Positions 675-64,000 of a DNA stretch of 64,000 nt are shown one piece after another. The translations under genes were made by a program, and so were the position numbers. Below the pieces are notes generated by a model. It had not been told where the DNA came from, made no database searches, and saw nothing but the letters and a program-made list of their open reading frames with translations. The stretch's first letter is position 1. Each line of letters opens with the position of its first letter. Source of the stretch: Panopea generosa (lineage: Eukaryota; Mollusca; Bivalvia; Adapedonta; Hiatellidae); assembly GCA_029582155.1 (NCBI GenBank), contig CM055902.1, forward strand, positions 18,177,511-18,241,510. The letters are read 5' to 3'.

Positions 675-802
675 CATTTTTCGGTGCTATGATCAACTCG
701 TTCATTCATGTAATCATGTATACATATTACGGTATTGCCGGCCTCGGTCCACAGTTCCAGAAATACCTCTGGTGGAAACGCTACCTCACAATTATACAAT
801 TG
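675..802 (+). CDS. Elongase exon with HxxMYxYY signature
   Basis: The acceptor is ...TTTTGCAG before 675 and the donor is GTAAGT at 803. The exon opens with two bases of a split codon (phase 2) and ends in phase 0 after IIQL. It encodes the membrane and loop segment [19 protein letters not shown] up to [10 protein letters not shown], which carries the histidine and tyrosines conserved across ELO proteins. Confidence 0.95.
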
Positions 803-3800
803 GTAAGTAATGATAAACCACCGTCCTCCTTGCGTTATGGTCATCAGTTATTATGTATATAGGGCCGTCCTTAAAAAATAAATTGTTTGCAGTGCTCCTA
901 CCTTCTCACTCAAAATTGCAGATATCAAAACTTTTTTTAATGACTTTCAAAGCCTTTAATTTTTTCTTCATGATTTCTGATCATTTTTCTATGCAAAATC
1001 AAAATTTAGCAAAAAAAATAAAACATTAGCTAACTACCTACCCCCATGAAAAAAACTGGCTCGGAGCACAGCAAACAAATATTTTTTGAAGGATGGCCTA
1101 GAAGCTGTGGTGTACTCAATGCTCAATTATTTCTTTTTGTGAAGCCTGGGATATCTAATTGATTATTGATTATAATCAATATTTGAAAGTAGCATGACTG
1201 TATCTGAGCTGCAGTAGGGATGATAAGTAATGTTTACCTGTTGTTTGTAATGTTGGCAATTATTAAATTGTGATTGTGTAATAAGCATGACAAGATATTT
1301 CTTAACAAATTCATCATCTGGCTTAATGTAACCAAACTAGGTAGGCACTAGGCAGCATCTAAATCATAATAAACAATATTAATTTAGTTTAAAACTTGTT
1401 TATTTCACTTCGATTGTGAAACAAGTTCTTACAACTTAGGCAAATCACGCTCGATGTCTTTCTGGTGAGAACCAATACTAAGCATATGCGGAAAAATGTC
1501 TTGCTCAAGACACCACACATAGCGGTGGCGGAGGATCAAACCCACGACTCGATCATGGGTTCGGTGCTCTACCACTGGACCACGCACTCTTACAGTGATT
1601 TTGCAAAGTGACATAAAATTTAGATTACTAATGTAGCTAAGCTGATTGTGTGAATAATGCCATTATTGTATGATTTTTGGCCATTATTGAAACTTTGCTG
1701 TGTTCCATTTTAGTATTTTAGGAATGCAGGGTCCATGCTGTTTGAGTTTTAATATTTCTAACCATAAAATTGGGAGGGAAAATCTTTTGTTTACTGAAAC
1801 TAATGTAACAATGTATAAAAATATGATTTTTTTAAAAATTTTAATTTGGCAAAAATATATTTTTTGGATTTGATACTTGGTCCCGAACAATTGACTGAAA
1901 TGGAACACTGCAAGCCAACCTAATAGATATTGTTATGAGGTCATCATACGTGACGCTCCAATATTTTACAGCAGTGTAGACGTATCATTGCCTGTTGTAT
2001 ATTAGTATGTCTACATATATGACAGATAGTCAAGTAGTATACATATATTGTAGTATTGGGTAATGGATGACTGGATCTTGACTCCACCAACATGTTTGAT
2101 ATATATAGATTGCGGTTTGCTCATCCATTTCGCATAGTAGTGTGCAACATTAACACTGCCCTGGTGGTCTGAGGCTGGGATAAATTACCTCAGAATATCA
2201 TAAATTTCAATTTCATAGACTGTTGGACCATAACAATTTCTTTTGTAATTTGAATAAAAAACAAAATTTAAAAAAAAAAAATCCTTTGAAAAAACAAATG
2301 GGACACCATTAATGGAAATTTGCCAACCAGTCTATTTGTTTACAGACATGCCAGATTTGTAGTGAAAAAATACCGAAATCTTATTGGTGTTAAATCATGC
2401 AAAATAAGAATTAAAATAAGTGTTGTATAAAACTGATGACTTTAATGAATCGTCTACCTTATTAAACATAGCTTAATGAACACCATTCATTTTTATGCCC
2501 TCTCCTTCTGAAAAACGCGAAGGGGCATTAAGTGTTATCCCCGTCAGTATGTTTGTTTGTGCAATTGTCTGTCTGTTCATCCTTCAAATTAGTTACTGAT
2601 GAATAACTCCTGAAAGGGTCTCTGCACTTAATTAATATTTGGTGTGTAACTCTATAGCTATAAAACACAGGTCAGATTCATTATTTATCAAAATTGGTCA
2701 AATTTTACATTACGGCCCCTTTTTAACTTAATTTTTGGTGGAAGTTACTATCATATAGCAGGGGGGATCTATGTTCTATGGACACATTTCTCGATTAATG
2801 TTGTGTCTATAGCAGAAATAATATAAACCTAATTTAATTTTAAGTAAAATTTGTTATATTGGAGCTGGTTTGAAATTTTTTTAAAAAAAATTTGAATTGA
2901 CCAATAATGTTTGTTCACAATATATCCAGCATATACTCACTGGTCCCGTATTGTCATAAGTATATCGTTTCAAAACATGCAATATTTACACATTGAAAAG
3001 GGACTAAACACTAGTTGCCTACCTATACACATCGCTGTACCTAAAGTAAATATTTTGTAGCTTTGTAGTCTTTAGATTTTGCATGTTATTATTTACGTCA
3101 ACAGATCCAGTTTTTTGCGGGCATGGTATACGGCATCCAGGGCATTATTATTGAATGTGATTATCCACGATGGATGCTGTGGACGTCCCTTGTGTACGGT
3201 GCATCCATTATAACTCTCTTCTTGAATTTTTATATTCAAGCCTATATAAAGAAACCCAAACAGGTAATTCATTTACTTGCATCATTATTTTTGGTTATTA
3301 TTATTTTAGATTCAGTTCAACGTTGGGATTATTCACGCAGTTCAGTCGCTGCTCACTGGGTGTGATTTCACTATATGGATGCAGTATGCTGTTGTGATCT
3401 ATGCATTCAGTATCCTCGTCCTATTTTTGAACTTCTATTTCCAAGCATATATCAAATCACAAAGGGCAAAGGTATGATATTAGTTTCATTCATATATTCA
3501 TATATGTCTTCGGTTTAACCTTTGTCTTGCTTTATCATACATGTATATCTACCCTTATGACCGCGGCGTGGTCTAGTGGTAGAGTGTCCGCCCAGCATGT
3601 GGAAGGTCGTGGGTTGGATCCCCGGCCGGGTCATACCAAAGACTTTAAAAACGGTACTAGAAGCTTCCTCGATTGATGCTCAGCATTTAGAGGACAGTTC
3701 TAGGTCTGGTCAGCCCGGTGTCAGTATAATGTAACTGGGTGGGATATTATACCATGTGTCTGTGGCATGATACTCCAGTGTGACAGCGCTCAGAATACTG

Positions 3801-6800
3801 TCTCAAGTAGACACCGTCACGATATGACTGAAAAATTGTTGAGAGTGACGCTAAACACCATACAACATACAACAACATATCTACCCTTGACTTTTTACAA
3901 TTTCATTATCATATTTTTTATGTTAGATACAGTCTGACCTGTCTTAAGCCAGTCAGCGAAGGCTGAAAAGTAGCCTTTTTAGACCTGGTGTTGCTTAATA
4001 CAGGCCCATTTGCTCCGAAAGCATAGAAATTGGAAATAGCAAATGTGGTTGCTTAAGACAAGTGGCTGCTCACTAGAGGTGACTGCTTATGCAGATTTGA
4101 CTGTATATGAAGTTTTAATGAATATCAATTTATTAAATTACATCCACACGGTGTAGAATCTGATTAGACAGAGATATAGTCTCAGACTGACTTTGTCTAC
4201 ATTGTCTGCATGATGTTGTTTTAAACAGCAAGCTGACATATTTCTTATTTCTCCTGTACAATATATACTGTATGTTTATAATACTATTAAAGGGTTGATG
4301 GATCAGTCACACCTTGTTTTTCTTGTACATTCAAAATCACTTTGGTCATTTTACATTCCTACATTACTTTGACCATTTTACATTCATACATTACTTTGAC
4401 AATTTTACATTCATACGTTACTTTGCCCATTTTACATTCATACTTTATTTGGACCAAATTAACATTTAAATGTTAGACAATTTTACATTCTTTCATTACT
4501 GAGACCAATTTACATTCATACGTTACTTTGACCTTTTATGTTCATACATGTACATTACTGAGACCAAATTAGGTTCATACATTACTGAGATCAGTTAACA
4601 TTCATACATAACTTTGACCATTTTACATTCATACATTACTTAGACCAATTTCCATTCTTTCATTACTGAGACCAATTTACATTCATACGTTACTTTGACC
4701 ATTTTACATTCATACATTACTTAGACCAATTTCCATTCATACATTACTGAGACCATTTTACATTCATATGTTACTTTGACCATTTTTAATTCATATTTTA
4801 CTTTGGCCATGTTACATTCATACATTACTTTGATTATTTTACATTCATACGTTACTTTGGCAATTTTACATTCCTACATTACTTGGACCATTTTACATTC
4901 ATACTGTACATTACTTTGACAATTTTACATTCATACATTACTTGAAACATTTTACATTCATACATTACTTTGACAATTTTACATTCATATGTTACTTTGA
5001 CCATTTTACATTTATACTTTACTTTGACCATTTTACATTCATAAGTTACTTTGACCATGTTGCATTCATATGTTACTTTAAACATGTTACATTCATATGT
5101 TACTTTGACCATGTTACATTCATACATTACTTTAACCATTTTACATTCATACGTTACTAAGCCCATTTTACATTCATACTTTATTTGGACCAAATTTACA
5201 TTTAAATGTTAGACAATTTTACATTCTTTCATTACTGAGACCAATTTACATTCATACGTTACTTTGACCTTTTATGTTCATACATGTACATTATTGAGAC
5301 CAAATTAGGTTCATACATTACTGAGATCAGTTAACATTCATATGTTACTTTGACCATTTTACATTCATACATTACTTAGACCAATTTCTATTCTTTCATT
5401 ACTGAGACCAGTTAACATTCATACGTTACTTTGATCATTTTACATTCATACATTACTTAGACCAATTTCCATTCATACATTACTGAGACCATTTTACATT
5501 CATATGTTACTTTGACCATTTTTAATTCATATGTTACTTTGGCCATGTTACATTCATACGTAACATTGATAATTTTACATTCATACGTTACTTTGGCAAT
5601 TTTACATTCCTACCTTACTTGGACCATTTCACATTCATACATTACTTTGACAATTTTACATTCATACATTACTTGAAACATTTTACATTCATACATTACT
5701 TTGACAATTTTACATTCATACGTTACTTTGACCATTTTACATTCATACTTTACTTTGACCATTTTACATGTACATTCATAAGTTACTTTGACCATGTTAC
5801 ATTAATATGTTACTTTAAACATGTTACATTCATATGTTACTTTGACCATGTTACATTTATACAATACTTTGAACATGTTACATTCATACGTTACTTTGAC
5901 CATTTTACATTCATACATTACTTCGAACATGTTACATTCATACTTTACTTTGACCATGTTACATTCATACGATACTTTGAACATGTTACATGCATAAGTT
6001 ACTTTGACCATGTTACATTCATACATTACTTTAAACATGTTACATTCATACGTTACTTTGAAAATGTTACATTCATACGTTAATTTGACCATTTTACATT
6101 CATTATCATACATTACTTCGGACATGTTACATTCAAACTTTACTTTGACCATTTTACATTTATACATAACTGTAAACATGTTACATTCATACGTTACTTT
6201 GAACATGTTACATTCATATGTTACTTTGACCATTTTACATTCATATATTACTTTGACCATGTTACATTCATATATTACTTTGACCATGTTACATTCATAC
6301 TTTACTTTGACCATGTTACATTCATACGTTACTTTGATCATTTTACATTCATACGTTACTTTGACCATGTTACATATATATATATATATATATATGTTAC
6401 TTTGACCATGTTACATTTGAATATTATTTAGACCATCTTTCATTCTTTCTTTTCTGAAACCATTGTGCAGAGACCATTTTGTTACTGCAGCCATTTTATA
6501 TCTTTTTATTACTTGGACCATTTTATATTCAAACATTAACTAAATCATTTTACATTTTAACTCTGTCATGGTTGATTTTATGTTTTATGTTAACCAGAAA
6601 TAGTCAGAAAGGTCAACTAGGGGTCGTATACTTGTGAATTGAATTGAACAATAAAAGATTTAGTACTCTGATTGGTTTTTCAGTGCCATCTCTATTTAAA
6701 TTTTATCTAGTACTACAGAGTACTCTTTTTTACATTTTACCGATGGCAGGCATATGGAGATTATATATTTCATGATATGTTTAACCATTTTATTAGACTG

Positions 6801-7018
6801 TAACCTTCTATTTTAATTTTAACCATTGATTACAAACCATTTTATTAAAAAGATAAGAATTTTATTACAATTTTAAACATTTTATTTCTTTTTTTAAATT
6901 TTTTATAACCAATAACCGTGTCCAATTGCAGGCGGCTAAAGCTGTTGACAGCAAATCTAACGGCAAAGTTACAAATGGTGTTACTAATGGACACACTGAA
7001 ACAAAGAAGACCAAATAA
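675..7018 (+). CDS. Very-long-chain fatty acid elongase, ELOVL4/7-like (3' part, two isoforms)
   Basis: This is the carboxy-terminal part of an ELO-family 3-keto acyl-CoA synthase, the condensing enzyme of ER fatty-acid elongation; the 5' exons lie before the window. Coding parts are 675-802, then either 3105-3263 or 3310-3471, then 6932-7018 (stop TAA 7016-7018), giving 123 or 124 residues here. Visible family marks are [13 protein letters not shown] (the HxxMYxYY signature), the [10 protein letters not shown] stretch, an IQF...CD..WM segment, the LFLNFY-QAYIK end of the last membrane helix, and a lysine-rich tail ending KKTK, which fits a KKXX ER-retrieval signal. All junctions are GT-AG and the phases agree. 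The odd feature is the pair of homologous penultimate exons, which share roughly 43% identity by eye. Membership of the ELO family is near certain. Assignment to ELOVL4 or ELOVL7 rather than another class is a judgement from resemblance. Confidence 0.93.
1390..1612 (-). mobile_element. tRNA-derived SINE, family A, copy 1
   Basis: On the minus strand it starts with a tRNA-like head: an A-box-like TGGTCCAGTGGTAGAGCACC and a B-box-like GGGTTTGATCC. It continues into a body ending TTGTAAGAACTTGTTTCACA and ATCGAAGTGAAATAAAC. Near-full copy at 7495-7685, and a tail-only fragment at 60713-60770. It lies in the elongase intron. Confidence 0.75.
2490..2800 (+). repeat. Dispersed repeat, family E, copy 1
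   Basis: About 310 bp in the elongase intron (GGCATTAAGTG..., CTGAAAGGGTCT..., ATAGCAGGGG). It resembles 9040-9310 throughout at clearly diverged identity. No terminal repeats or coding potential were seen, so its class is unknown. Confidence 0.6.
3105..3263 (+). CDS. Elongase alternative exon A (last transmembrane segments)
   Basis: 53 codons, phase 0-0, flanked by ...TCAACAG and GTAATT. It reads [12 protein letters not shown], then [26 protein letters not shown]. It is homologous over its full length to the exon at 3310-3471, and both match the single segment found at this point in vertebrate ELOVL proteins. At the position where human-type enzymes have the H of IGHT this exon has Tyr. Confidence 0.9.
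3310..3471 (+). CDS. Elongase alternative exon B (last transmembrane segments)
   Basis: 54 codons, phase 0-0, flanked by ...TTATTTTAG and GTATGA. It reads [12 protein letters not shown], then [27 protein letters not shown], and keeps the conserved His (GIIHA) that exon A lacks. The gap to exon A is only 46 bp, shorter than introns that are normally spliced in metazoans. The two exons are therefore unlikely to be joined to each other, and using both would give a protein with a duplicated membrane segment. Confidence 0.92.
3561..3890 (+). mobile_element. tRNA-derived SINE, family B, copy 1
   Basis: The head GCGTGGTCTAGTGGTAGAGT (A box) and GTGGGTTGGATCC (B box) is followed by a body of about 250 bp ending in ACCATACAACATACAACAAC. 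Related minus-strand copies are at 47545-48110 and 51080-51405. It lies about 90 bp after elongase exon B. Confidence 0.8.
3928..4108 (+). mobile_element. Short MITE-like element, family F, copy 1
   Basis: Ends TACAGTCTGACCTG and (reverse complement) TACAGTCAAATCTGC form terminal inverted repeats starting TACAGT, as in Tc1/mariner/pogo-type MITEs with TA targets. Internal motifs TTGCTTAATACAGG and AAGTGGCTGCT recur in the copy at 12697-12880 and, degraded, at 20690-20850. Confidence 0.6.
4325..6560. repeat. 27-bp minisatellite in the last elongase intron
   Basis: About 80 copies of a 27-bp unit, approximately TTACTTTGACCATTTTACAT + TCATACG, with diverged units at the left edge and after about 6370, and an interrupting (AT)n run at 6373-6393. 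Because 27 is divisible by 3, long open frames run through it on both strands; these are artefacts. A block of about 736 bp is itself duplicated (4440 onward matches 5176 onward). Confidence 0.95.
6932..7018 (+). CDS. Elongase terminal exon
   Basis: 28 codons plus TAA after the acceptor TCCAATTGCAG. It encodes a hydrophilic tail rich in Lys, Asn and Gly ([16 protein letters not shown]) ending in KKTK, a fit to the KKXX ER-retrieval pattern seen at the end of several ELOVL proteins. Phase 0 matches the ends of both alternative exons. Confidence 0.88.
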   Translation, partial: AAKAVDSKSNGKVTNGVTNGHTETKKTK

Positions 7019-41000: not shown

Positions 41001-44000
41001 CAGGGATTTCAGTAAATAACAGGGGTTTCAGTGAATAACATTAGTCACAGTAAATAACAAGGGAATGGAACATGGCTACTATTGTCAAAGGGAAGTATTA
41101 AACTGGGAAAAAAAAACACATTTCCAATTCAGGTCAGACTGAAAAGCATTGTCATCTTTAACTCTTGAAAACTCCTGACCAATAATGAACAAGTACAACT
41201 AGCTAATGAACACTTTTGGACTGTGATAAATTAATTCCTAGATATTCATTCATAATTGATTTGTTTTAACCCTTTACTCCATAGATATGTGTTTTCCCGC
41301 ACCAATCACAGAAGGCCTATGAAAACAGTGCAGGAAGAGTTCAGATATGCTTGTTACAAGCAATCTGAACTCTTCCTGCACTGTTTTCCACTCTGTTAGT
41401 TAATATAAACATAATTTACCAAATAATTCAAAAGCCTTCTATATTACGTGTCCAAAGGTGTCTATATTAGAGGTGTCCAAAGGCGTCTATATTAGGTGTC
41501 CAAAGGCGTCTTTATGAAGTAAAGGGTTAAGATAGAGATGGGAGATGCAAATTTATTTTTATCTTTTATCTTTTCAGATATCAAAACGGATGTGTCGATG
41601 AAAGAATTCATTTAAAGATCAAAATGTGAACTGTTTTGGCAAATTACGGTTATTGTTGTATAAAAAAACAACTTTGGCATTAATAAAACATGTTTGGGCA
41701 GGTAAAAAAAATGGGGGTAGCATGTGATGAAAGTCTAAGAATTTATTTAGTATTTCCTTAACTGATAGTGGATTCAGTATTAACTGAGAATGCATGCTTT
41801 TTTTAGCCTTGGCAATCATCATCCTGGACTGATAGTGCATAGCTCATGAACATGCATGGCTGACAATGCACAAGAAGATTTTTGGCTAACGAATTCTCTT
41901 GGCTGACAGATAATTTGTAAGATTTATTAGCTAACAAATTGGGTCATATTCCTAATGCCAAATAGTATCTTTTTTCCCAATTGAATGGTAAAAATTTCTA
42001 ACTGAAAACTTCAATAATTGTAAATTGATACTTGTCATAAGTCCTTGAATAAACCAAGTTTTTCTCATTCCGAATTGAGAATAAATTAATTCTTCAAATA
42101 AATGGTAAGTGAAGCAAGTGTACACAGATTTAATGTTAACATTTTCCCTATTTTAATGACTAAATATTCCAAATTCCAAGGGTATGGGTCCTCTTCCCAA
42201 AATGGAGAAAACAACAACACTGTAACACCCCTGACTAATGATAAATAACAACTAATATACCACCCTGACTTATAATGCATAAAAACAGTTTGTTAATGAA
42301 CAACCCTGAAAGATAATGCATAAAGCCAGTTAGCTAATAAACCCTGACAGACATTACATAAGAACAGTTTATTAATGAACACCCCTGAAAGATAATGCGT
42401 AAGAACAGTTAGCTAATGGACACCCCTGACAGATAATGCATAAGAACAGTTAGCTAATGGACACCCCTGACAGATAATGTGTAAGAACAGTTAGCTAATG
42501 GACACCCCTGACAGATAATGTATAAGAACAGTTAGCTAATGAACACCCCTGACATATAATGTGTAAGAACAGTTAGCTAATGGACACCCCTGACAGATAA
42601 TGTATAAGAACAGTTAGCTAATGAACACCCCTGACAGATAATGCGTAAGAACAGTTAGCTAATGGACACCCCTGACAGATAATGCATAAGAACAGTTAGC
42701 TAATGGACACCCTTGACAGATAATGCCTAAGAACAGTTAGCTAATGAACACCCCTGACAGATGTGTAAGAACAGTTAGCTAATGAACACCCCTGACAGAT
42801 AATGCATAAGAACAGTTAGCTAATGAACACCCGTGACTGATCATGCGTAAGAACAGTTAGCTTATGAACACTTCTGACAGATAATGTATAAGAACAGTTA
42901 GCTAATGAACACCCCTGACAGATAATGCTTAAGAACAGTTAGCTAATGAACACTTCTGACAGATAATGTATAAGAACAGTTAGCTAATGAACACCCCTGA
43001 CAGATAATGTGAAAGACTAGTTAGCTAATGAACACCCCTGACAGATAATGCATAAGAACAGTTAGCTAATGAACACCCCTGACAGATAATGTGAAAGACT
43101 AGTTAGCTAATGAACACCCCTGACAGATAATGCATAAGAACAGTTAGCTAATGAACACCCCTGACAGATAATGTGAAAGACTAGTTAGCTAATGAACACC
43201 TCTTACAGATAATGCATAAGAACAGTTAGCTAATGAACACCCCTGACAGATAATACATAAGAACAGTTAGCTAATGAACACCCCTGACAGTTAATGTGAA
43301 AGACTAGTTAGCTAATGAACACCCCTTACAGATAATGCATAAGAACAGTTAGCTAATGAACACCCCTGACAGATATTGCATATGAACATTTAACTATGAA
43401 CACCCCTGACAAATAATGCATAAGAGTATTTAGTTAATGAACATCCCTGACAGATAATGCATAAGAGTATTTAGTTAATGAACACCCCTGACTGATCATG
43501 CGTAAGAACAGTTAGCTTATGAACACTTCTGACAGATAATGTATAAGAACAGTTAGCTAATGAACACCCGACAGATAATGCATAAGAGTATTTAGTTAAT
43601 GAACATCCCTGACAGATAATGCATAAGAGTATTTAGTTAATGAACACCCCTGACAGATATTGCGTATGAACATTTAACTATGAACACTCCTGACAAATAA
43701 TGCATAAGAGTATTTAGTTAATGAACATCCCTGACTTATAATGCATAAGAACATTTAGCTAATGAACACCCCTGACAGATATTGCGTATGAACATTTAAC
43801 TATGAACACCCCTGACAACTAATACATAAGAGTATTTAGCTAATGAACACCCCCGACAGATAATTTGTAAGAACAGTTAGCTAATGAACACCGCTGACAG
43901 ATAATGCGTAAGAACATTTAGCTAATGAACAACCCTGGCTGATAATGCATTAGAACAGTTAGCTTATTAATGTCCCTGACTGACATGACAAATGAACAGT

Positions 44001-47000
44001 TAGCTAATGTACACCAGACTAACAATGCACAAGACTTTATTATCTTTAAAGTAAACACCCCTCCTTACAATTGCATATTACTGTATACTTAATGCCTTTA
44101 AAAAACAATTTTTTAATATTGAATATTTCGGAAGTGTTATCCCAGATCTGGTATCATTTTCATTGGTTCTAACTTCATACATGCATAAGCTTATGTGCAC
44201 AAAACCAATAAAGTATCTCAATATACTTCAAATTACAGTAGAACTTTATTGGCTCGATAAACAGATGACTTAAACACAACATATAGCTCGAACCACTTAT
44301 CTGGTCCCAGGCGAATTCCTTTTTCGATGTATATACCTTCAGAGCCCCAGAAAAGATGATTATTTACGTATACGACGCATTTAAAATGGGTGGATACACA
44401 TCAAATTAGTTTTACCTGCATATCAGTTATGAACTAGTAATTGATAAAAACAATATTTAATAATAATTTAACATTGAAGTGTCAACTTTGCACTGACTGT
44501 ACATCATATGTGCAATACTCATCACTATTCTGGAAAAAAATCAAGAGTACTCATCTACTCTGATTTTGATGAATAATTACTCATTGGCTTAAAAAATTAT
44601 CTGGGGCTCTGACATGTATGGTATGAAGTTGAACAATACTCGACTCGAACAACTTTTTTTCCAGTCTCATTAGGTCCGAGCCATCGATGGTCTACTGTGT
44701 GATCAAATGATGAACAATCCTGACTGCAGACACGTATAGCTAATTAATGAACACACCTGACTGACATTGTAAAGAAATACTTTGATAATGAACATTTCAA
44801 ACTCTATATAACTGATAATACATGAACATGGTTGAGAATCTATAGCATACCAAGTTTAACATATTATGTGGAAACAATAATAAGGCCCTAAAGGCAAATC
44901 TTACATACCATTTTCCTCAAAATGTCCTTCACTTTGCCCCTCGTCACCTCCTACAAAGCCAAAACAGACAAACAATGCTTTAATTTTGTGGTACGAGTAC
45001 CTTCATCCAAATATTTGAGATAAGATAAAACAGTAAGTACATGCTTTATAAGCACAAATGTTGTCAATTTACAATATTTTTTTTTTCTTTCAATATGATA
45101 AGATACAAGTATGTATGAAGACAAATAATTAAATGAGAAATTTGGAAAGGGGCACAACTCTGGTAGTTGGTGGAAAGGCATGGATCTGTACAACATAAAT
45201 CTATATAATAAAGGTGTTGTGTCAAGAACTGTCTCATAAGAGGGTTTGTATCTCGACCCGAGAATTGAATTTCCTTACACACCACAACTCGTAAAACATA
45301 ACAGATTTATCCTGATGTGAATACGAGTCTTTCATGAAAAATCAATACATTTTTATGCCTTTTTTTTTATTTCTTTACATTTAATGATGACAACAATACA
45401 ATCAAAGGCCTGAACAACCTGTGGGAAGGCTCGCATCATGTCGCCTTTCTTGTCAGAATATGATATACTGATTTACCAATGAGCTTATAAATACAGATCG
45501 AAAGACAGAATTTTTTTTTGTTATAATAATGAAAATATTATTTAATTTAAATAGATGATAATCTATGATTGTGATGGCGTTAATTGTATACAGTTTTGTT
45601 TCTTTTTTTTTTAATATATCCCTTTTTGATATCATTTATTTAAACCAATATGTTGATGACACATCAAATGCATGATTATAGTTGCTATGTTAGTTGCAAC
45701 AGAAGTCTTATAATGTAGTTACAACAATAAAATCATATAAAATAAAACATTTAAAAGACAGATGTATTTTATAGAGCCAAACAACCTGTGGATGATAGAA
45801 AGAAAGTGACGAACAAACAAATAACATGGGCTGCTTCACTTATACTTTTGAGACGACCCTCATATACAATAGGGAGAATCTATACCTGTGCACCGCTAAA
45901 TACGGGACCGGAACATTGTTTCAAAAGCTTGTTCAAGTGATTTTCATTTCGATTTTTGGTACATGTGCATATTTTAGATCAGTGCAATCTACAGTTCCAG
46001 ATTACCTCAAAACAGTTGAGCTTCTTTATAAAAGGTAAACGTTACCGGACGTGATGTTCAACTGTTTTGAGGTAATAGGGAATTTTTTAGGTCGTACTGA
46101 ATTGCATAGCAGTAAAATAGAGTACCCTATTTAGCTAGCAGCATGTGCGACCTTGATTTAATGTGTTTCTGACCAAATCGCGCGAACACCGCAAAAAAAA
46201 CCCCGATTAAGTGGTGTTGAAAATTTTGTATGTATTTCGATGTTATAGATAATACTTTAACTGTAGCAGGCATACTAGAAGTTCTGATTTTAATCACATG
46301 TATATAAAAAAAAGAAAAGTTCATTCGTAAAGGCGTGTGAATGCTAATTGTTCAGGTAATCCACGGTTTGGTTCAATTTTTGGTTAAGAGCTCACAGTTC
46401 GGTTATTTTCGGTTTGGTTTTTAAGTAAACAAGAAAACACATTAATGTTATTAAACTTTTATAAAAAAACAAAAAACAATTAATATAAGTCATACCTTGA
46501 CTAGAAAAAACTAATTTCAGCTATATGTGCATATTTTCCAGGGCCCAAGGTAAAGTGTAGGAATACAGACAAGGAATAAGAGATTCTTCTATAATCCCTT
46601 GATACACGACAATGTGCCGAGACAAGTTAGTTAAAGAATAATGATAAAATATAAAAAATAAACTTTTTTTTTATGTTTGTATTTATTGAAGTCTTAAATG
46701 GAGGAAGATGTTTGTCATTATATTAACCGTTTCTTCTTTTGTTTTTTTTAAAAAAAATTCCCCAAATTCTGAACAATGTGCGTGATTTTTCCCCCTTAAA
46801 AAAAGGTGTGGGTCCTTCCCCTTTTTCTAAAAAAAGAACCCTTATAAAATATGTGTCAATGTCAGCCCTCATGTGTTTACTCGCATGCATTTTATTTTCA
46901 TCACTGTGGTAAGTGCTAAAAATAGACTATTTCCTAGAAGAATATGTCAATTACAATAGTAGACGACAAATTTTATGCCAGCGAGACATATTTTTCCAGT

Positions 47001-57200: not shown

Positions 57201-58975
57201 TGGCTGGGGTATTTGTGTTCGAGCACATTCTGCGAGCTGTACTGGTTATCAAAAAATTACATCTGACGAGAACCGTGATCTATGCCGTCGTCAAGGAAAA
57301 TCGGCCTGTTATAGGGTGAACTCTCCCAAAACATTTCCCAGCACGTTAAGAAATATTCGAAGCAATATTTGTCAACACGGGGATCTTTGTCGTTACGGAT
57401 CACCGAGTTTGGCCATACTGTCTCGTAAAACGACACGTGATAAAGCCGACGAGTCAACCGGAAGTCAGTCCTCAAGTTCAAATACCACAGTCATCGTCAG
57501 TCCAATTAAGGTTGGAAAGAGATTTAAACATTTTAAACAAAACGACAGCTACATGGAGCAGTATAGGTATGTCTTGTTTGTGTGTTGTTGGTAAAACTTA
57601 TTTCTTAGAATTTTATCTTTGATGTGATACATACACCATTACACGCAAATTAGACATCAACACCTCCATCAAAAGCTGGTCATCTTCATTAGCATGTGTT
57701 GAATAAGACTTAGTTCCTGTTTACAAAGGTGTTATTTCTCTGTTGGCTATGCGAAACAACAAGGATTTTGAAATCAATACGATCCGTTATGCAGGTTTAC
57801 ACGTTGTTAAAATTGTTTCATATAGAGTCTAAATGACGATGTGAAGGTCGCCAAGAAGTATTTTGGAGCTGGTTTTTTTTTAATAGAATAGGGATTTCTT
57901 TTATAGTTTTTCACTCCAATTTAAATGTCGATTGTGTCATGTTTTAGTGGATTTGACATACAAAACCATTTGGATTGTATATGATTTCTGGCTATCCATT
58001 CTAAAAATATTTTTATTTTTAAGATATTTATAGCGTTTTTTCCCCAGATATAATCGCTTTAAAAACATAAATTTAATTCATGCAACTACAAAATGCGATA
58101 TTTAAATTATTCATCTTTCTAGGCCAGCTATGGTAATGGGTTCACATAATCTTTGTTTTAAGAGAGGAGTATACGTACAGAAAACTGAAAGAAAACCGCG
58201 ACACAAGTGCTCCGCCTCAAACTGTTGACGCATACATTTGTTCTTGCGGTAATCACACATGTGCAGGGTCCAATACTTCTTCAAGTTGTATACAAAAGTG
58301 GTACCCGAACCAGAGTCATCACGAAAAGCCGAACACTGCAGCCACGTGTGAGAAGGATGCTTGCGTCACATCCGGTGTTCCAGTGCCCAAACGAACACCT
58401 GTTTTAAAGAAGCGTCCAGCAAAGCCACCGCCTAAGAGAGCACGCGTACCAGTCAACATTCTGGTCAGTATGAAATGGCCATCGGATTGTTTAAATATCT
58501 TGATTATAACAAACCATGTGTTTTTGTAAGCTAGTTTATAATCGCCATTTCATTGTCATTATTAACATATAAAACCGATGTAAATCATAATAACGATATA
58601 TTCATTGAAACAATTACTGCTCCCTATGTTTCGAAATCCGAAACAAACAGATATAGTCTCCCGGGCGATTACTACTACTACTACTACTACTACCACTACC
58701 ACTACCACTACCATTACTACTACCAGTACCACTACTATTACCACTGCTACTATTACTACTACTTCTACCACCACTACTACTACTACTACCACCACCACCA
58801 CCACCACTACCACTACCACTACTGCTACCACTACCACTACTACTACAACTACTACTATTACTACTACTTCTACCACCACTACTACTACAACTACAACTAC
58901 TACTACTACCACCACCACCACCACCACCACCACTTCTACTACCACTACTACTATTACTACTACTTCTTCCACCAT

Positions 58976-59017
<42 letters not shown>

Positions 59018-59745
59018 CACCACCACCACCACCACCACCACCACCACCACTTCTACTACCACTACTACTACTAATACTTATAATAATAAACCTAATAATA
59101 ATAAAAATATAATATTAATGATAATGCCTTTATAATAATGGCTTTGTATTGAGAACTCATTAAAATTATACAAAATTCAATACTCGTCTACAACAAGACC
59201 TTCTTTAGAATATATATTATATCTAATATCAGCAACAACTGTACAAACATATAGAAAATGCGTATGTACAGTAGGCTTTGTTACCTAAACGTTGTCCAAT
59301 GAATAGTTTTAAACATTATGTTTCAAGGCATTACGAGAGGCTGAAAGTCGAATATGAATAGGAATTAAAGAGTCCATGTAGCCGAATGGCTGTTATACAT
59401 TATCTGATTGGATACATGCACTAAATGTTTGTTATTTAAAAATTCGCAAATATTTTCTTCCAGGCACCAAAACAAGATGACGCCACAAGAAAAAAGAATC
59501 AGTTCTTTTGGTCAAAACAAGATGGTCGCAAAGTTGGACTTTTCGCAACGTCATTGAGGGTAAACAATTACAATCCTACAAAAACGACATCTGATTATAT
59601 GCGATCATCGTCGTCAACGCAATCTGTATTACAGAGCGGAAGTCTTGCTTCGATAAACGTCCAGAACGCTGCACAATGTCCACAAGCACCTCTACCCACA
59701 GTACGTCAAACGTTTAACCAGAACGTAAAAGGGAAAGTCGACTGA
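54012..59745 (+). CDS. Unrecognised Cys-rich basic protein (3' five exons, 455 aa in window)
   Basis: Five exons with agreeing phases (54012-54246, 55719-55893, 57190-57566, 58163-58463, 59464-59745, stop TGA) form one open frame of 1,370 nt; the 5' end is missing. I do not recognise the family. The N-terminal visible part is compact (FSVWCNSPIIKYTESFRDLI, NPFCITCVYKKMFETC). A Ser/Thr/Pro-rich stretch follows, then two Cys/His clusters (HNFCGWGICVRAHSASC..., YICSCGNHTCAGSNTSSSC), a charged segment MEQYREEYTYRKLKENR, and a basic Pro-rich tract PKRTPVLKKRPAKPPPKRAR that could be a nuclear signal or an SH3 ligand. The last 94 codons are Gln/Ser-rich. No transmembrane helix is evident. It may be lineage-restricted. 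The exon chain is well supported; the function is unknown. Confidence 0.8.
54385..54845. repeat. About 150-bp diverged tandem repeat in an intron of the unknown gene
   Basis: CGGTAACTTC(A/G)CG(A/G) at 54458 and 54613 (period 155), each followed by CATGTCAAC, GTC(T)A, TATGCCTTTTG or AGTGCCTTTTG and ACCATGG(T/A)AACAAATAG. A third partial unit follows from about 54770. Confidence 0.7.
54897..55013. mobile_element. Foldback element
   Basis: The arms CAGGCCCTATCTTACTATAG and CTTTTGGATA pair with TATCCAAAAGCTAAGTAAGA and TACGGCCTG across about 30 bp. GGTCTGTA occurs on both outer sides (54893 and 55010) as a possible target duplication. Confidence 0.7.
55719..55893 (+). CDS. Unknown gene, second visible exon
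   Basis: Acceptor TTTGTACAG, donor GTGAAC, phase 2 to 0. Ser/Thr/Asn/Pro-rich: DTSSPVGNPSQMPVMRNG, SEPTTPRPGESVDKSN. Probably disordered. Confidence 0.78.
56608..56800. repeat. Dispersed repeat, family G, copy
   Basis: Starts with the same 32-bp block as 17761. It ends CTCGGTCGCCATGGAGGACC, which resembles 61415-61433 (GTCGGCCATGGAGGACCCAT). It is preceded by a (GATT)n run and GAATGTTTAGCGTC, a tail found in molluscan SINEs. Confidence 0.5.
56905..57150. repeat. Dispersed repeat, family H, copy 2
   Basis: The reverse complement matches 25500-25640 (TTTGGTGTTTGCCTCCAATC, GTGAGTTTTATC, CTCTGACAACTCTTGTTTTA). It is GC-rich on its left (GCATCGTCGTCGGCGTCGTC). It ends about 40 bp before exon 57190. 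Confidence 0.6.
57190..57566 (+). CDS. Unknown gene, third visible exon (Cys cluster 1)
   Basis: Acceptor TTCTTTCCAG, donor GTATGT, phase 0 to 2. The first half has nine cysteines among about 65 residues (HNFCGWGICVRAHSASCTGY ... NICQHGDLCRYG). The second half is Ser/Thr-rich and ends FKQNDSYMEQYR. An internal acceptor TTTCCCAG before 57349 could give a shorter form in the same exon. It begins about 40 bp after a dispersed repeat. Confidence 0.75.
58163..58463 (+). CDS. Unknown gene, fourth visible exon (Cys cluster 2, basic tract)
   Basis: Acceptor TTGTTTTAAG, donor GTCAGT, phase 2 to 0. It encodes EEYTYRKLKENRDTSAPPQT, YICSCGNHTCAGSNTSSSC and the basic PKRTPVLKKRPAKPPPKRAR. The alternative acceptor two bases later would run into a stop, so this one was chosen. 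Confidence 0.8.
58668..59070. repeat. (TAC/ACC)n trinucleotide tract
   Basis: About 400 bp of TAC, ACT and ACC triplets with interspersed ACTTCT and ATT. It reads as (GGT/GTA)n on the minus strand. It generates long poly-Tyr/His, poly-Thr and poly-Val open frames, which are not genes. It lies 200 bp after the donor of exon 58163-58463, in the following intron. Confidence 0.95.
59464..59745 (+). CDS. Unknown gene, last exon
   Basis: Acceptor TTTTCTTCCAG; 93 codons and TGA. APKQDDATRKKNQFFWSKQD, then a Ser/Gln-rich end (RSSSSTQSVLQSGSLAS) and FNQNVKGKVD. AATAAA follows 102 bp after the stop. Confidence 0.82.
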   Translation, partial: APKQDDATRKKNQFFWSKQDGRKVGLFATSLRVNNYNPTKTTSDYMRSSSSTQSVLQSGSLASINVQNAAQCPQAPLPTVRQTFNQNVKGKVD

Positions 59746-60770: not shown

Positions 60771-61559
60771 GTATTTAGTTTCTTTTATATAAATAATCTT
60801 TATAAAATCAAAATTCAAATTTGTAGATATATATAATATCAAACAGAGCGTCGTGGTATGATTTTTTAAATTTAAACACCTAAATACTATATTATACGAT
60901 AAATTGCATTCTTGTAAAATACGCGATACGATGATATGTTGCTATTACTTTATCGCAGAGGAAGCGCGGAAATTGTCCGCTCACCAATGACCGTACTGTC
61001 AGATACGTCATACATTTGATGGAAAGATAACTGTTCCAAAGATAATTATAATATATAGACAAGAGTTATCTTTCTTCACATATTGAATCTCGCCATCAGT
61101 TACGGTTAAATCCATAGTGTCTTCCTTTTGTAATGTTCTTTTTCTTTAAGTAAATTGCAAATGTTTTTTTTATAGAAAGAACAAAGGTCATATAAAGTAA
61201 CATCTTCTCTAAATAAACCAGAGATCGTAATTTTCAGTCGCGTTCGGTCGAAAAACTGTATTCGAGAAAGTTTGACAGTTACTTGCGGAAGCGAAGTGCA
61301 TATAAACGGCAAGCATTTTCACAATAAAGTTTTTGAACCGAGTCAGACACTAGTCCATGACCTCAACGGTGAGAGATACGTGTTCACTAGAAGACAGACA
61401 GCTCCCTGGACCAGTCGGCCATGGAGGACCCATACAACCCAATGGAATTATGCGGGCGTAGCTGTACTACAATTTATCGGGATTGGTGTTTCGTGGTAGG
61501 GGAGTTCGGTGATAGCCTAGATGAGTAATAGTACACTGCTGCGTATATGTTGATATTGC

Positions 61560-64000
61560 TATAGTCAAACGTTTGTAGTTTATATAATGAAGACAGCAGT
61601 CTATAGTAAAATGTTTGTAGTTTATATAATGAAGACAACAGTCTATAGTAAAATGTTTGTTGTTTATATAATGAAGACAGTATTCTATAGTAAAATTTTT
61701 GTAGTTTATATAACGAAGACAGTATTCTATAGTAAAACATTTGTAGTTTATAGAATGAGGACAGCAGTCTGTAGTAAAACGTTTGTAGTTTAAATAATAA
61801 AGATAGTATTATATAGTAAAACATTTGGAGTTTATATAATGAAGACAGCAGTCTATAGTAAAACGTTTGTATTTTAAATAATAAAGACAGTATTATATAG
61901 TAAAATTTTTGTAGTTTATATAATGAAGACAGCAGTCTATAGTAAAATGTTTATAGTTTATATAATGAAGACAGTATTATATAGTAAAATGTTTGTAGTT
62001 TATATAATGAAGACAGTATTCTATAGTAAAACATTTGTAGTTTATAGAATGAAGACAGCAGTCTATAGTAAAATGTTTGTAGTTTATATAATGAAGACAG
62101 CAGTCTATAGTTAAACGTTTGTTGTTTATATAATGAAGACAGTATTCTATAGTAAAATTTTTGTAGTTTATATAACGAAGACAGTATTCTATAGTAAAAC
62201 ATTTGTAGTTTATAGAATGAGGACAGCAGTCTGTAGTAAAACGTTTGTAGTTTAAATAATAAAGATAGTATTATATAGTAAAACATTTGGAGTTTATATA
62301 ATGAAGACAGCAGTCTATAGTAAAACGTTTGTATTTTAAATAATAAAGACAGTATTATATAGTAAAATTTTTGTAGTTTATATAATGAAGACAACAGTCT
62401 ATAGTAAAATGTTTATAGTTTATATAATGAAGACAGTATTATATAGTAAAATGTTTGTAGTTTATATAATGAAGACAGTATTCTATAGTAAAACATTTGT
62501 AGTTTATAGAATGAAGACAGCAGTCTATAGTAAAACATTTGTAGTTTATATCATGAAGACAACAGTCTATAGTTAAACGTTTGTAGTTTAAATAATAAAG
62601 ACAGTATTATATAGAAAACATTTGTAGTTTATATAATGAAGACAGCAGTCTATAGTAAAACGTTTGTAGTTTATATAATGAAGACAGCAGTCTATAGTTA
62701 AACGTTTGTAGTTTATATAATGAAGACAGTATTTTATAGTGAAACATTTGTAGTTTATATAATGACGACAGCAGTCTATAGTAAAACGTTTGTAGTTTAT
62801 ATAATGAAGACAGCAGTCTATAGTAAAACGTTTGTAATTTATATAATGAAGACAGCAGTCTATAGTTAAACGTTTGTAGTTTAAATAATAAAGACAGCAG
62901 TCTAAAGTAAAACGTTTGTAGTTTATATAATGAAGACAGTATTTTATAGTGAAACATTTGTAGTTTATATAATGACGACAGCAGTCTATAGTTAAACGTT
63001 TGTAGTTTATATAATGAAGACAGCAGTCTATAGTTAAACGTTTGTAATTTATATAATGAAGACAGCAGTCTATAGTAAAACGTTTGTAATTTGTAGTTTA
63101 TATAATGAAGACACTATTTTATGGTAAAACGTTTGTAGTTTGTAGTTTATATAATGAAGACACTATTCAATAGTAAAACGTTTGTAGTTTATATAATGAA
63201 GACAGCAGTCTATGTACGTTTGTAGTTTATATAATGAAGACAGCAGTCTATAGTTAAACGTTTGTAGTTTAAATAATAAAGACAGTATTATATAGTAAAA
63301 CATTTGTAGTTTATATAATGAAGACACTTTTCTGTAGTAAAACGTTTGTAATTTATATAATGAAAACAGCAGTCTATAGTAAAACGTTTGTAGTTTGTAG
63401 TTAATATAATGAAGACACTATTCTATAGTAAAACGTTTGTAGTTTATATAATGAAGACAGCAGTCTATAGTTAAACGTTTGTAGTTTATATAATAAAGAC
63501 AGTATTATATAGTAAAACATTTGTAGTTTATATAATGAAGACAGCAGTCTATAGTAAAACGTTTGCAGTTTATATAATGAAGACAGCAGTCTATAGTAAA
63601 ACGTTTGTAGTTTATATAATGAAGACAGCAGTCTATAGTTAAACGTTTGTAGTTTATATAATGAAGGCAGTATTCTATAGTAAAATGTTTGTAGTTAATA
63701 TAATGAAGACAGTATTCTATAGTAAAATGTTTGTAGTTTATATAATGAAGACAGTATTCTGTAGTAAAATGTTTGTAGTTTATATAATGAAGACAGCAGT
63801 CTATAGTAAAATGTTTGTAGTTTATATAATGAAGACAGTATTATATAGTAAAACGGTTGTAGTTTAGATAATGAAGACAGTATTCAATAGAAAACGTTTG
63901 TAGTGTATATAATGAAGTAAAACGTCAGTTGTTCTATAATGAAGACAGCGGTATATAGTAAAACGTTTGTAATTTATAGAATGAAGGCAGCAGTATATAG
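61560..64000. repeat. 42-bp minisatellite, continuing past the window
   Basis: About 58 copies of a 42-bp unit, roughly GTAGTTTATATAATGAAGAC + AGCAGTCTATAGTAAAACGT + TT, with two main variants (GCAGTCTA and GTATTCTA). A block of 462 bp (11 units) is duplicated: 61711 onward equals 62173 onward. 42 is divisible by 3, so 14-residue repeat frames appear on both strands; these are artefacts. Confidence 0.95.

Follow-up and report, generated by a model that had tools for sequence, protein, structure and literature searches.

A probable mutually exclusive exon pair encoding TM6, loop 6 and TM7 in an Elovl4-type elongase gene

Elongase specificity and exclusive exon choice

The α-tropomyosin gene carries a mutually exclusive exon pair that is enforced by branch-point distance. 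OGDH exons 4a and 4b are adjacent and homologous, with branch points under ~50 nt from the upstream donor. A donor to branch point distance of ~50 nt is the steric limit proposed for vertebrate exons (PMC7969005).

The elongase fold is described as a barrel of seven helices with a conserved disulphide Cys in loop 6, and the region spanning TM6, loop 6 and TM7 is important in substrate preference (PMC10449689). In a yeast elongase TM6 and TM7 serve as a molecular calliper for chain length, while swapping ELOVL5 W231 and ELOVL2 C217 swaps substrate preference; yeast and mammalian experiments both link this region to chain length or substrate (PMC10449689, describing Gregory 2013, Denic and Weissman 2007). 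Invertebrates usually carry one Elovl4, and a mollusc Elovl4 expressed in yeast formed products up to C34 (PMC11286186). Two Elovl4-like isoforms of Crassostrea gigas, X1 (298 aa) and X2 (295 aa), appear as separate entries in PMC4550275. Their sizes resemble the 294 and 295 aa of the two forms described here, which is a lead only. A search of open-licence literature on elongase exon duplication and splicing found no report of a mutually exclusive exon pair in an ELOVL gene. Such pairs are already known in general; the one described here lies at an unusually informative site of the enzyme.

The gene and its two alternative exons

The window analysed is a stretch of 64,000 nt of the Panopea generosa genome (C9:18177511-18241510). 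The source assembly (1.474 Gb, 39 contigs) was searched, yielding at least 26 ELO matches, and 20 genomic stretches were used. The window gene has exons of 67, 191, 81, 172 and 128 nt, followed by A (159 nt) or B (162 nt) and then 87 nt. The first exon, taken from a scan for ATG frames with fitting phase and donor that gave two candidates, is the least certain. The features around the pair are as follows.

675..802, plus strand: shared exon 5, 128 nt, Pfam ELO match of 47.4 bits, in frame in the gene model
3105..3263, plus strand: alternative exon 6A (A), 159 nt, 53 aa, TM6-loop6-TM7, Pfam ELO match of 37.3 bits
3264..3309, plus strand: gap between 6A and 6B, 46 nt, gt...ag
3310..3471, plus strand: alternative exon 6B (B), 162 nt, 54 aa, TM6-loop6-TM7, Pfam ELO match of 35.2 bits
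3472..6931, plus strand: intron after 6B, 3460 nt, parting the TM6-7 cassette from the tail
6932..7018, plus strand: shared last coding exon 7, 87 nt, a 28-residue tail and stop; acceptor, phase and stop fit

Exons A and B lie where the earlier note had placed them, with AG/GT borders and phase 0 at both ends, and the gap between them has the length and gt...ag ends that it gave. The gene model refines the upstream neighbour to the exon at 675-802. Both exons were said to fit their flanking exons, and this holds: the A form (885 nt, 294 aa) and the B form (888 nt, 295 aa) are without internal stop. Against ELO PF01151 they score 233.8 and 231.3 bits, respectively (cut-off 27), covering profile positions 2-240 or 2-241 of 242. 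The A form has a match to the ELOVL7 structure (6y7f, 8.2e-71); for B the comparison used the end part with exon 5 (3.8e-23). Of the 40 long ORFs in the window, 10 were scanned with Pfam, giving two weak matches, neither above its cut-off.

Upstream of the pair, exon 3 encodes the loop-2 Cys and exon 4 carries QISFLHVYHH, an HXXHH box with Gln at -5, as given for PUFA elongases in PMC11286186. Exon 5 encodes the part preceding TM6, with a 12-residue segment and the initial T and Q of TxxQxxQ, and ends in phase 0 at the donor TTG/GTAAGT (exon/intron). Exon 7 has no Pfam match of its own; NG-rich tails like the one it encodes are found in some ELO paralogues. This tail terminates in a KKxx-type dilysine motif. 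A 27-nt tandem array of ~75 copies (4326-6375) takes up the greater part of the intron downstream of B. Further large tandem arrays lie in the window at 58670-59078 (TAC triplet), 42263-44015 (41-nt units) and 61559-63917 (42-nt units).

A and B differ at 30 of 53 residues and are identical at 23, bearing out a reported difference of ~57%, and their proteins match in BLASTP at 3e-18. Of random 159-nt frames in the window 5.3% are open (n=20,000), so an open frame by itself means little. Each exon alone matches Pfam ELO above the 27-bit cut-off (A at 2.8e-9, B at 1.3e-8), and these two separate matches rule out a chance ORF. Apart from exon 5, A and B, nothing in the window scored above noise when it was searched, and no third copy of the cassette was found. 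The two form a genuine tandem pair of exons, conserved over a long time, in a gene of Elovl4 type. They are adjacent, similar in length, alike in phase and homologous, as mutually exclusive pairs are; from the sequence, such a pair is the best reading of A and B, and the two are most likely spliced exclusively. The earlier note had likewise proposed exclusive use, describing the exons as versions of one last membrane segment. Length, phase, homology, adjacency, conservation and the short gap speak for the pair, and its ELO identity stands. The single-segment description does not, as the exons encode the last two helices plus loop 6.

Elongase class, age and conservation of the pair

The window gene is called Elovl4-type on its sequence. 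Its nearest row is human ELOVL4, with 63% identity across 190 columns of the part common to both forms and a path of 0.7. The tree fork that holds the window gene is weak (59/69), while the supported groups are without it: an Elovl2/5-like group (97/95) with C8_50 and an Elovl1/7-like group (97/97) with C8_45 and C4_63. Of 14 sequences, A, B and human ELOVL4 alone have Trp-Met at cassette residues 23-24. Like ELOVL4 and invertebrate Elovl4, the gene has HVYHH with Gln at -5, the loop-2 and loop-6 Cys, and Trp at the W246 column. Unlike them, its TM6-7 exon is doubled and an extra intron precedes the tail; none of the genome's six other spliced ELO genes shows either feature. In all six the TM6-7 exon has the same start and phase and is terminal, with stop and tail. 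The second exon and the intron after TM6-7 therefore set the window gene apart. No second cassette copy was found in the examined stretches of the other ELO genes, the best stray match of 14 cassette queries having an E of 0.098. Scans of bacterial, archaeal and viral contigs gave no relatives, as expected of collections without animals.

Several other ELO matches in the genome have features of their own. A second spliced ELO gene (C9:18151240-18159003, minus strand) lies head-to-head with the window gene, with ~12 kb between detected exons, and the two are a local ELO pair. In the alignment of the paralogue at C8:76184645-76184773 two residues are missing just before the HTYHH box and the usual Gln at -5 is absent. 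On C2, stop-free ELO matches at 39542518-39543225 and 39560763-39561338 (ORFs of 285 and 234 aa, ~18 kb apart) are possibly intronless genes.

Over 49 aligned residues A and B share 23, compared with 21 for human ELOVL4 and ELOVL5 and 28 for human ELOVL2 and ELOVL5. The A-B divergence is similar to that of human ELOVL4 and ELOVL5, which makes the pair look old, though the fast change of A calls for caution. Human ELOVL4 is identical to B at 24 of 52 residues and to A at 20 of 52, and in a 54-column tree the end branches are 0.81 for A and 0.21 for B. Judged from these sequences, B is the more ancestral-like version and A the faster-changing one. A and B are not joined in this tree. A is nearly as close to the paralogue C9m (21/53) as to B (23/53). 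For B, the paralogues C8_50 (24/53) and C8_45 (23/53) are no more distant than A (23/53). Duplication inside the window gene would be the simplest account of their origin, because they share gene, phase and Trp-Met.

Differences between A and B number 20, 19 and 38 at codon positions 1, 2 and 3, respectively (Fisher p 4.4e-5). A recent segmental duplication or haplotype error was rejected, as 38 of the 53 third positions differ, a divergence of 0.72. Neutral drift was simulated at intron composition, starting from either exon. On drift to a third-position divergence of 0.60 or 0.69, none of 3000 runs each kept 23 of 53 residues, whichever exon was used; at a divergence of 0.29, 23 residues survive in 77-78% of runs and the frame remains open in 9-12%. 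These simulations carry less weight if the exon was still under constraint during most of the third-position change. The six other spliced ELO genes are invariant at nine positions, of which each exon keeps eight, A lacking His9 and B lacking Pro21. Over the long term both show protein-level constraint, as measured in the source genome alone. Together these data point to long maintenance of both exons by selection and exclude prolonged drift; judged from one genome, they would be compatible with recent disuse.

Exon choice and its possible effect on the enzyme

Inclusion of both exons would give 348 aa and skipping of both 241 aa. Since both products are in frame, the reading frame does not police the choice, and the short gap is the likely enforcer. 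Retention of the gap shifts the frame, with a stop at 3363-3365. In the seven ELO genes, the 30 further introns that were measured span 567 to 17,939 nt, so that even the shortest exceeds the gap more than tenfold. In this survey borders were picked by a simple score, first introns lay outside the sample and a few long introns may hide a small exon; none of these caveats yields a short intron. Candidate yUnAy-like branch points in the gap are confined to +8 and +12 relative to the donor. In full the gap measures 46 nt against the ~50-nt limit, which comes from vertebrate work and may not be that of this animal. Some invertebrates splice introns near 46 nt. The gap length would fit steric exclusion of joint use of A and B. 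In OGDH the corresponding branch-point distances are 25-41 nt (PMC7969005), compared with +8 and +12 for the candidates here. The parallel with OGDH lies in the adjacent homologous exons and the short distances; the window gene differs in its gene family, in that its whole gap is 46 nt, and in that its branch points are candidates and its pair is known from sequence.

The acceptor tract of A holds 10 pyrimidines in 17, that of B 12 in 17 and that of exon 7 9 in 17, and the donors match the consensus at 8 of 9 (A) and 7 of 9 (B) positions. With a slightly weaker acceptor and a slightly better donor in A, neither exon is named as the default. RNA folding of 3050-3560 (z -0.92, 18 of 100 shuffles as stable) lends no support to a structure-based switch. 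Inverted repeats flank the pair (1527-1585 and 3566-3627), complementary to each other over 19 nt (95%) and 22 nt (86%). By eye they are tRNA-like, and they are without an ARAGORN or Rfam match in the window. They could bring the exons into a loop, or may simply be inserted repeats.

The reading considered quite probable is that the TM6-loop6-TM7 exon was tandemly duplicated inside an Elovl4-type gene and now forms a mutually exclusive pair. Exon 5 would be joined to 6A or 6B, and either of these to exon 7, giving products of 294 and 295 aa that differ neither ahead of TM6 nor in the tail. Joint choice is probably blocked, as U1 and U2 would be without room together on the 46-nt gap. It is unlikely, though the best placed of the alternatives, that A is a decaying duplicate, once an exon but no longer used and now drifting, which would leave B as the sole functional version. 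The longer end branch of A, its loss of the paralogue-invariant His9 and its weaker acceptor tract would all fit such decay. Against it, A has no stop, intact splice borders and a donor closer to consensus than that of B; it retains eight of nine invariant residues, the loop-6 Cys and Trp23-Met24, and the acceptor of exon 7 is no better than its own. Drift from A that changes ~36% of residues kept the open frame and 10 conserved positions in 0.3% of runs (n=4000). A recent loss of use fares better, with drift changing ~11% of residues passing in 21% of runs.

Rather less probable is a regulated mix of cassette or alternative-terminal-exon use, in which B is read through and terminates one codon beyond its donor, or one exon or both are skipped. 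The terminal position of TM6-7 in the six other genes, the stop one codon into the read-through and the intact frame on skipping of A and B all suit this. However, the nearest AATAAA/ATTAAA downstream of B is 661 nt away, and the tail exon is intact and similar to some paralogue tails. Least probable of all is normal inclusion of both exons, which would yield an elongase of 348 aa carrying an additional two membrane helices. A and B are in phase and would maintain the frame, but this form needs the 46-nt gap to be spliced where the 30 other ELO introns measured are at least 567 nt, and a single isoform, A or B, already fills the ELO profile. It would also duplicate part of the seven-helix barrel (PMC10449689).

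Under mutually exclusive use, the exchanged part would be the calliper itself. In alignment, A and B correspond to ELOVL7 residues 213 to ~266, a region taken as TM6, loop 6 and TM7. Both retain the loop-6 Cys, Trp at the ELOVL4-W246 column and LFLNFY, and both have Met at the ELOVL5-W231/ELOVL2-C217 column in an alignment with human sequences, in agreement with the earlier note. Its report of Tyr in A and His in B near the start was also correct: the position is residue 9, and His is invariant there in the six other spliced ELO genes. Human ELOVL5 has Gln in this column. Beyond Tyr9, A has Pro21 and Arg22, while beyond His9, B has Thr21 in place of Pro and Ile22. At a guess, Tyr9/His9, Pro21/Thr21 and Arg22/Ile22 are the candidate residues for a functional difference. 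That each exon loses a different paralogue-invariant residue (His9 to Tyr; Pro21 to Thr) would be a division of labour. The alignment of A and B is gap-free through residue 49, so any calliper difference would have to come from side chains, cassette length not being the differing feature.

The swap would probably alter chain-length or substrate preference. As in ELOVL2, ELOVL5 and the yeast elongase, TM6, loop 6 and TM7 would carry the specificity difference, with the distinction that those variants are separate genes or engineered proteins, whereas the window gene would supply them on its own, through alternative exons. A more tentative proposal, held at somewhat under even confidence, is a two-setting elongase. 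Splicing would swap the whole calliper of one Elovl4-type enzyme, and tissues would set chain-length or unsaturation preference by exon choice and not by separate genes. A natural cassette pair in an otherwise identical protein offers a clean test of the calliper idea. If the proposal is true, one gene would yield two enzymes through exon choice, and counts of ELOVL genes would understate the fatty-acid-making repertoire of such animals.
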